33,804 nucleotides of DNA from an uncultured Clostridia bacterium (lineage in GTDB: Bacteria; Bacillota; Clostridia; Lachnospirales; CALKRZ01). A program made the position numbers and the translations under genes. A model generated the notes under the pieces. The model was given only the letters and a program-made list of their open reading frames with translations. It was not told the DNA's origin and searched no databases. The DNA is taken from assembly GCA_937989765.1 (NCBI GenBank), contig CALKRZ010000244.1, positions 1-33,804 of the forward strand. Direction: 5' to 3'. The first letter of the stretch is position 1; the number at the start of each line of letters is the position of its first letter. Positions 8,382 through 33,804 of the stretch are shown piece after piece.

Positions 8382-9106
8382 TCACAGATGATTCAGTGGT
8401 CATGAGAAAAAATCTCAAGTCCATATTGACGACAGGAGGACATAGTGTAATAGGGGAAGCAGCCAATGGTCAGCAAGCTTGTGCTGAATATGAAAAACTG
8501 AAACCAGATCTAGTGACGATGGATATAACCATGCCCGTGATGGATGGAATAGAAGCAGTAAAGAAGCTTATTAAGGATTTTCCAGATGCAAAGATTATCA
8601 TGATCAGTGCGCTAGATCAGAAGAGAATGGTATTTGAGGCTTTGGAAAATGGAGCAAAGCATTATATCGTAAAACCGATTACTGCAGAAAAGGTGTTACA
8701 CATCATACAAGAAGTATTGCAGGAGGAAGATCTTCAAGAGAATCTTTCAGAAGTAAGCAGTATACCTGATCAGGGTACACCTTTTTCTATTGAAAATGTC
8801 AATGGAGAATTTATCGTAAAAATTCATGAACAAATGGATGGAAGTCAGCTGCAGTTTTTACAGATGGCTGTACAAGGATTTCTATTTGTACGCCCCTTAC
8901 AAGTTACTTTTGATTTTGGTCATACTGCCCTATTAGATCTACAAGTCTTAAAACAACTAGGGACGATAGGCAAGAGTATTCATGATATGGGTGGAATATG
9001 TGGGGTTAAAGCTTTTAATGCGCAACTAATAAAACAAATAGAAAATGCAGGATGGGGAGAGTTTACCACCAGCCAAACAAATGATTCTACGGAAGGGGAA
9101 GTATAA
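8366..9106 (+). CDS. CheY-like response regulator receiver domain with C-terminal STAS-like domain
   Basis: Receiver [21 protein letters not shown]...[18 protein letters not shown]...IIMISAL...[11 protein letters not shown]-terminal half ([22 protein letters not shown]...[33 protein letters not shown]) resembles a STAS fold. Overlaps the upstream kinase gene by 16 nt. Confidence 0.85.
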
Positions 9107-9810
9107 TGAGTATACATATTGGTGCCAAAATAGGAGAGATTGCAGATACAGTACTGCTCCCAGGAGATCCTCTGCGAGCCAAGGTGATCGCAGAAACCAT
9201 GCTAGGAAATGCGGTATGCTATAACGAGGTACGGGGGATGTATGGTTTTACAGGAACCTATAAAGGCAAAAAGATATCTGTACAGGGAACTGGAATGGGA
9301 ATTCCGTCTATATCCATCTATGTAAATGAATTAATTCAGAGCTATGAGGTGAAAAATCTTATCCGAGTAGGAACTTGTGGAGGAATTCAACCTACCGTAG
9401 CAGTGCGAGACGTGATCTTGGCGATGAGTGCATCGACTACTTCTGGTACGGTTCGTACTCGTTTTCAAGACAGTACCTATGCACCTACAGCGGCGTTTAG
9501 TCTATTAAAGAAAGCGTATGATGCAGCGATCGCAAAAGGAGCGCCTGTAAAGGTAGGGAATGTACTTACGGGAGATTTATTTTATGATGATAGTCAGACG
9601 TGGAAAAAATTTGCAGCGTATGGTGTACTCGGTGTAGAAATGGAAACAGCAGAACTATATACCCTAGCGGCAAAATGGGGTGTCAATGCGTTATCGATCT
9701 TGACGGTCAGTGACAGCCTTGTAACTGGAGAAGAAACTACCTCAGAAGAACGGCAGAACACTTTTAAAACAATGATTGAGATTGCTTTGGAAGCAGCGGT
9801 ACAAATATAA
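9106..9810 (+). CDS. deoD: Purine-nucleoside phosphorylase, DeoD type
   Basis: [26 protein letters not shown]...[39 protein letters not shown]...[13 protein letters not shown]...[14 protein letters not shown], characteristic of DeoD. Confidence 0.97.
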
Positions 9811-9835
9811 AAATTGCAGATTACAGAAAAAGAAG

Positions 9836-9966
9836 GTGGTAGGGCAAATATATAAATCTTCCAACAACTGCAAAATCGCACTTGTGTAAAGGGAGGGTGT
9901 AGCTAACACTCTGGGACGTGCTCTTTTGTTGCAGTTGTTTACAGATTTATATATTTACCCTACCAC
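9836..9966. repeat. 131-nt imperfect inverted repeat / structured element
   Basis: Left arm GTGGTAGGGCAAATATATAAATCTtccAACAACTGCAA versus reverse complement of right arm GTGGTAGGGTAAATATATAAATCTgtaAACAACTGCAA. The interior can form GCAC/GTGC and a hairpin AGGGTGT-agcta-ACACTCT. Confidence 0.9.
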
Positions 9967-9991
9967 TGTATACTTTTTAGGAGATCTCAAG

Positions 9992-10017
9992 ATCCCAGCC
10001 TTTTGGCTGGGATTTTT
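9992..10017 (+). terminator. Rho-independent terminator
   Basis: ATCCCAGCC-TTTT-GGCTGGGAT-TTTT. Confidence 0.9.
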
Positions 10018-33180: not shown

Positions 33181-33690
33181 ATGATGATGATAAGTATTCG
33201 GGGATATAAAGATGAAGATGAGGCATATATTGAGTACTGGGAACAGCAAAGGGAGATTTTTTCTTATCTGTGCCATACGAAGCCTAGATGTTTTCGACAA
33301 GGAACACCGCTTGATGAAAGCAGTACAAAGTGGTATATTATAGAAGTAGAAAATGTATCCATAGGATCTGTATGGATAGAAGAGATGGCAGCAGGGAAAG
33401 GAAAGTTAGGTATATGGATTGGAGATCCTACTAGACGGAATATGGGGATCGGAAAACAAGTAGTCAAGCAGATGATCGACTGGGCATTTACTGTGTGGGG
33501 ACTTGAAGAGATATACCTGAGAGTAAGACAAAATAATCGAAGAGCCATCCAATGTTACAAAAAATGCGGCTTTGTACTAGTCAAAGAATATCCAAAAATG
33601 CGTTTTGCAGATGGATCTTATCAAGGAATTTATGAAATGACCCTATATAGAAATGGGATATCTGAAAAAGTATGTGGGGACAAAGTATAA
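33181..33690 (+). CDS. GNAT-family N-acetyltransferase
   Basis: LGIWIGDPTRRNMGIGKQVVKQMIDWAFTVWGLEEIYLRVRQNNRRAIQCYKKCGFVLV, GNAT acetyl-CoA binding pattern. Confidence 0.9.
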   Translation: MMMISIRGYKDEDEAYIEYWEQQREIFSYLCHTKPRCFRQGTPLDESSTKWYIIEVENVSIGSVWIEEMAAGKGKLGIWIGDPTRRNMGIGKQVVKQMIDWAFTVWGLEEIYLRVRQNNRRAIQCYKKCGFVLVKEYPKMRFADGSYQGIYEMTLYRNGISEKVCGDKV

Positions 33691-33804
33691 GGCAACTGAA
33701 AGAAAATAACTGGTCAAAGATGCTGAGGATATTTTGTGTCAGACAAGGAAGCAGGTTCCGTTGCTAGTGGAACTATCAGCGGGTTCTGCTGACGCGGTAT
33801 GACG

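Follow-up and report, generated by a model that had tools for sequence, protein, structure and literature searches.

The window, the entire 33,804-nt stretch of DNA that was analyzed, contains a long palindrome at positions 9836–9966, between an open reading frame at 9106..9810 that we take to be deoD and an intrinsic terminator. The question raised by this locus is whether the palindrome is a mobile element of the MITE type or a structured RNA of the deoD 3′ UTR, both of which had been proposed in the initial annotation.

Structure of the Palindrome Downstream of deoD

Residues 9836–9859 pair with residues 9943–9966 with a single mismatch. The inner stem, AACAACTGCA/TGCAGTTGTT, consists of 11 pairs, including the adjoining A-T, and the hairpin AGGGTGT-agcta-ACACTCT was confirmed in the core. 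The 24-bp stem with one mismatch, the 3 × 3 loop, the inner stem, and the 7-bp hairpin described initially were all recovered by the inverted-repeat and folding analyses. The arm motif is found at just two sites in the window, the two arms of the palindrome itself. A minimum free energy of −57.9 kcal/mol was calculated for 9836–9966, compared with −31.5 ± 3.8 kcal/mol for dinucleotide shuffles (z = −6.9), and none of the 200 shuffles reached this value.

The palindrome had been placed at 9836–9966, and the pairing of that segment is correct; its ends are not. Alignment of the flanks of sister copies demonstrated that the palindrome continues for ~20 nt past the reported limit on both sides, to 9818–9987, and the z score is −8.2 when the full element is folded. 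The features of the locus are listed below.

9106..9810, + strand: ORF of 234 aa, presumed deoD (purine-nucleoside phosphorylase), directly upstream of the element
9818..9987, + strand (element orientation +): window copy of the 169-bp element, very probably a MITE (sister-copy alignment, 9819–9986 at 85.7% identity; folding z score)
9818..9835, + strand: left outer arm, degenerate; family consensus GGATCTCAGAAAAAGTAT (sister-copy alignment)
9836..9859, + strand: left inner arm GTGGTAGGGCAAATATATAAATCT (inverted repeat; genome-wide arm consensus counts)
9863..9873, + strand: 5′ side of the inner stem AACAACTGCAA (fold)
9874..9928, + strand: asymmetric core with the small hairpin; most variable region across copies (fold, alignment)
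9929..9939, + strand: 3′ side of the inner stem TTGCAGTTGTT (fold)
9943..9966, + strand: right inner arm AGATTTATATATTTACCCTACCAC (inverted repeat)
9967..9987, + strand: right outer arm, degenerate; family consensus CACATACTTTTTCTGAGATCC (sister-copy alignment)
~9992..10017, + strand: intrinsic terminator hairpin ATCCCAGCC-TTTT-GGCTGGGAT-TTTT, downstream of the element (read from the sequence; not listed by the terminator scanner)

Copies of the Element in the Genome

The draft genome to which the window belongs comprises 2,295,331 bases (~2.3 Mb) in 244 contigs and is 80% complete. When the window palindrome was searched against this genome, the best 40 of 114 candidates were scored, and the copies other than that of the window are 85–91% identical to it. 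The arm consensus GTGGTAAGGCAAATATATAAATCT gave 87 forward and 89 reverse matches with at most three mismatches; the reversed control pattern gave none. Each full copy provides one forward and one reverse arm match, and the genome therefore contains ~90 copies. The end sequence GGATCTCAGAAAAAGTATGTGG occurs 86 and 80 times. Several contigs start or finish within a copy, as expected of repeats in a draft assembly.

The copies were analyzed in 324 kb of stretches surrounding known copies. The family consensus is 169 bp in length, GGATCTCAGAAAAAGTATGTGGTAAGGCAAATATATAAATCT-(core)-AGATTTATATATTTGCCTTACCACCACATACTTTTTCTGAGATCC, with 42 + 10 base pairs, a 3-nt bulge, and the 3 × 3 loop, and it contains no gene or coding capacity. 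A terminal inverted repeat of ~22 bp, GGATCTC(A/T)G(A/C)AAAAGTATGTGG, is found at both ends. A subgroup with the ends GGATCTCTGCAAAAG (e.g., L018, L019, and L021) has both ends altered together, from CAGA to CTGC, and defines a subfamily.

Target Duplications and Mobility

An exact 8-bp direct repeat lies immediately outside the GG...CC termini in 28 of the 59 near-full-length copies for which both flanks are available, compared with an expectation of 0.8 and a maximum of 4 in 200 shuffles. A further 10 of the 59 match at seven of the eight positions, and no other duplication length is in comparable excess in this set. The duplicated targets are AT-rich, as in AAAATAAA and TTTATTTT. Copies with an exact duplication differ from the consensus by a median of 6.5 changes versus 13.0 for those without, which is consistent with decay over time. 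The window copy has no recognizable target duplication, as had been stated initially; the statement does not extend to the family, whose sister copies carry the 8-bp duplications. The window copy is an old one that has lost its duplication.

An internally deleted form of 48 bp (GGATCTCAGAAAAAGTATGTGGTAAGGCAAATACTTTTTCTGAGATCC) gave six matches, and each of the five that were read with their flanks carries a duplication that matches at 8/8 or 7/8 positions. If these forms were born by transposition, the core is dispensable for that process. The copies read are as follows.

48-bp form, copies read with flanks: L043 2837, L052 3164, L053 8605, L204 1491, L205 1491

The ~90 dispersed copies, the shared 169-bp unit with inverted ends, the 8-bp duplications, and the 48-bp derivative with its own duplications identify the element, almost certainly, as a MITE with an AT-rich 8-bp target duplication. 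Dispersed copies with intact ends had been named in the initial annotation as the outcome that would support a MITE, and this is what the genome contains. Every testable defining feature of a MITE is found in the family (a noncoding unit within ~70–300 bp, inverted ends within ~15–30 bp, a target duplication, and many copies); the partner transposase is missing. The copies would have been inserted into AT-rich 8-bp targets, with duplication of the target, by a transposase that acts in trans and recognizes the ~22-bp ends.

Genomic Setting of the Copies

Gene positions were obtained with a simple ORF caller and are approximate. By this measure nearly all copies are intergenic. For the 69 cases in which a 3′ end of a gene faces a copy, the distances have a median of 20 nt and 24 lie within 0–10 nt; for the 57 in which a 5′ end does so, the median is 74 nt and 2 lie within 0–10 nt. 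Copies are found in all gene contexts, divergent gene pairs among them. Selection against insertion in genes and promoters probably left mostly those copies that lie just downstream of genes. The clustering just past stop codons implies that many copies are probably transcribed as 3′-UTR or intercistronic hairpins. Copies on contigs C102, C140, and C183 of G000 are inserted at the T-run that follows terminator-like hairpins, which suggests that terminators are frequent AT-rich targets.

The copy at deoD starts 7 nt past the stop codon and stops just short of the terminator hairpin, and it is probably transcribed as a long 3′-UTR hairpin between the two. In the mRNA such a hairpin may passively influence cleavage by RNase III or decay from the 3′ end. 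Relatives of the deoD protein, at 66–74% identity in a protein search, are spread over Clostridia and Bacilli; even the best of them, at 74%, are too distant to supply an empty site.

RNA-Level Selection and Matching of the Arms

Selection on the stem as RNA predicts an excess of single changes that turn a pair into G-U in the transcript over those that produce A-C. Once changes common to at least five copies had been removed, 18 G-U and 18 A-C changes were counted in the transcript orientation. The test, which has moderate power, provides no sign of RNA-level selection on the stem and argues against it.

Changes matched between the two arms are nevertheless frequent. Among pairs inside the outer ten, 19 cells with arm-matched changes were counted, whereas shuffling of the arms among copies gave 2.2 on average and never more than 8; the shuffle takes the copies as unrelated, and most matched cases sit in single copies. 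Both arms are changed together in C58 (C/G), C110 (two adjacent pairs), and C191 (C/G). These changes are best explained by amplification of altered source copies or by template switching between the arms, without RNA selection. Template switching during replication is a described mutational source of compensatory changes (PMC8794818). A more tentative proposal is that, within each inserted copy, one arm is corrected from the other by this route, so that the family stays self-complementary without selection on the RNA. If this is true, the ~90 copies constitute a natural experiment on conversion between palindrome arms, and the seeming compensatory changes are mutational and no proof of RNA function. 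Matched changes in two arms are usually taken to prove RNA structure, and their frequency here, despite a G-U test without any indication of RNA selection, calls for caution.

The same observations bear on the possibility that the family is a MITE whose 3′-UTR copies were co-opted, with the hairpin RNA selected for a role in mRNA stability or in processing by RNase III, in the manner reported for ERIC and Correia. The concentration of copies past stop codons and the excess of matched arm changes are in its favor, and effects of MITE hairpins on mRNAs have been described (PMC10969869). The equal numbers of G-U and A-C changes speak against it, however; the location is explained by avoidance of coding and promoter sequence, and the matched changes can come from template switching or altered source copies. 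Co-option is therefore considered unlikely.

Mobilization as a REP/REPIN-type palindrome by a RAYT (IS200/IS605-like) transposase is much less probable still. The family is palindromic, intergenic, and high in copy number, and the arm GTGGTAAGG superficially has a GTAG-like motif in some copies. Single-strand IS200/IS605 transposition makes no target duplications, however, whereas 8-bp duplications are present here. The 169-bp unit with GG...CC termini also contrasts with REPs of 20–40 bp (PMC3733652).

A stand-alone, nonmobile regulatory RNA of the deoD 3′ UTR, to which the very stable fold might point, can be dismissed in view of the ~90 dispersed copies beside unrelated genes, their target duplications, and the lack of an Rfam match to the palindrome at gathering scores. 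The best of the relaxed Rfam matches scores 26.6 bits, where the gathering threshold is 211, and these low-scoring matches were rejected. The palindrome had not been recognized initially as a known riboswitch or 6S-type RNA. The two candidates of the initial annotation thus part ways: the MITE is upheld by the copies and their duplications, and the unrecognized RNA is set aside by the Rfam result, the absence of a G-U bias, and the occurrence of copies in all gene contexts. The family is a new one of a well-known mobile-repeat kind, not a novel regulatory RNA. The result eliminates a false candidate for a structured RNA and describes an abundant, apparently lineage-specific MITE family that has a precise 8-bp duplication as well as the derivative of 48 bp.

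Search for a Partner Transposase and Relatives

No autonomous element with the ends of this MITE family was found in its own 80% complete genome or in the other genomes searched, and the solo ends that were inspected are followed by degenerate sequence, by other repeats, or by the end of a contig. ISL3 elements have ends that begin with GG and AT-rich target duplications of 8 bp, and the family resembles them in both respects. IS6, IS256, and IS1595 also give duplications of ~8 bp. The transposase models for ISL3 (PF01610), IS256, IS1595, and IS6 gave no match in the 80% complete draft; PF01610 matched in 4 of 14 control genomes. Derivation from ISL3, from which the family differs in lacking both a PF01610 match in its own genome and an autonomous element with its ends, was not adopted after this negative result in an incomplete draft.

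The exact end pattern gave nothing in the GTDB r220 contigs, the degenerate pattern gave nothing in viral contigs, and a distant blastn search of plasmids and phages was likewise negative. A DNA search of 392 genomes of the order gave just 22–46-nt matches, of which L103 was read and appears to be a fortuitous similarity within coding sequence. In 391 genomes from the class, a set that overlaps partly with that of the order, the end pattern with two mismatches was hit once in each of nine other genomes, and in no case was a matching opposite end present close by. Three of the nine hits were checked for genes; all three fall inside coding sequence, and no transposase was seen there. No convincing relative was obtained from the ~760 additional genomes searched in the order and class, a set composed of genomes from outside the taxonomic family of the host, and judged against these the element looks restricted to the present lineage.

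A Second Palindromic Family

At positions 33691–33804 of the window lies a partial copy (95% identity), truncated where the contig ends, that belongs to another palindromic family, ~160 bp in length, GGCAACTGAAA...TTTGAAGTTGCC, with ~30 good copies in the same genome. A 3-bp TAA or TTA (TWA) duplication flanks 23 of the 24 copies read, which identifies a second MITE family with another target rule. At the window copy, the TAA also terminates the acetyltransferase-like ORF that lies upstream. Positions 33663–33680 (GAAAAAGTATGTGG), at the 3′ end of this ORF, contain a 14-nt exact match to the end of the first family, which may be a remnant or chance. The two families are nested on contig C1 of G000, where an element of the second (L056, 2043–2202) lies within a copy of the first (1923–2242).

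Comparison with Known Repeats

Bacterial MITEs such as ERIC, YPAL, NEMIS, RUP, and EFAR are 70–300 bp in length, have inverted ends, often lie beside genes, and fold as RNA (PMC3733652). Among the closest descriptions is that of YPAL of Yersinia, a palindromic intergenic repeat of 168–169 bp with a predicted stem-loop (PMC2267715) that is classed as a MITE (PMC3733652). The host of YPAL belongs to another phylum, and the likeness lies in the listed length, the palindromic form, and the predicted fold. ERIC, from Enterobacteria and Vibrio, is likewise a high-copy palindromic MITE, of 127 bp, with a long stem-loop and a location near genes (PMC2267715). It differs from the present family, which duplicates 8 bp, in length and in host. 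The target duplications of ERIC are TA. Correia/NEMIS of Neisseria is also a high-copy MITE with transcripts that fold, and its ends differ from those of the present family. RNase III cleaves Correia-containing mRNAs (PMC10969869), and the deoD transcript could, by analogy, be cleaved in the same way.
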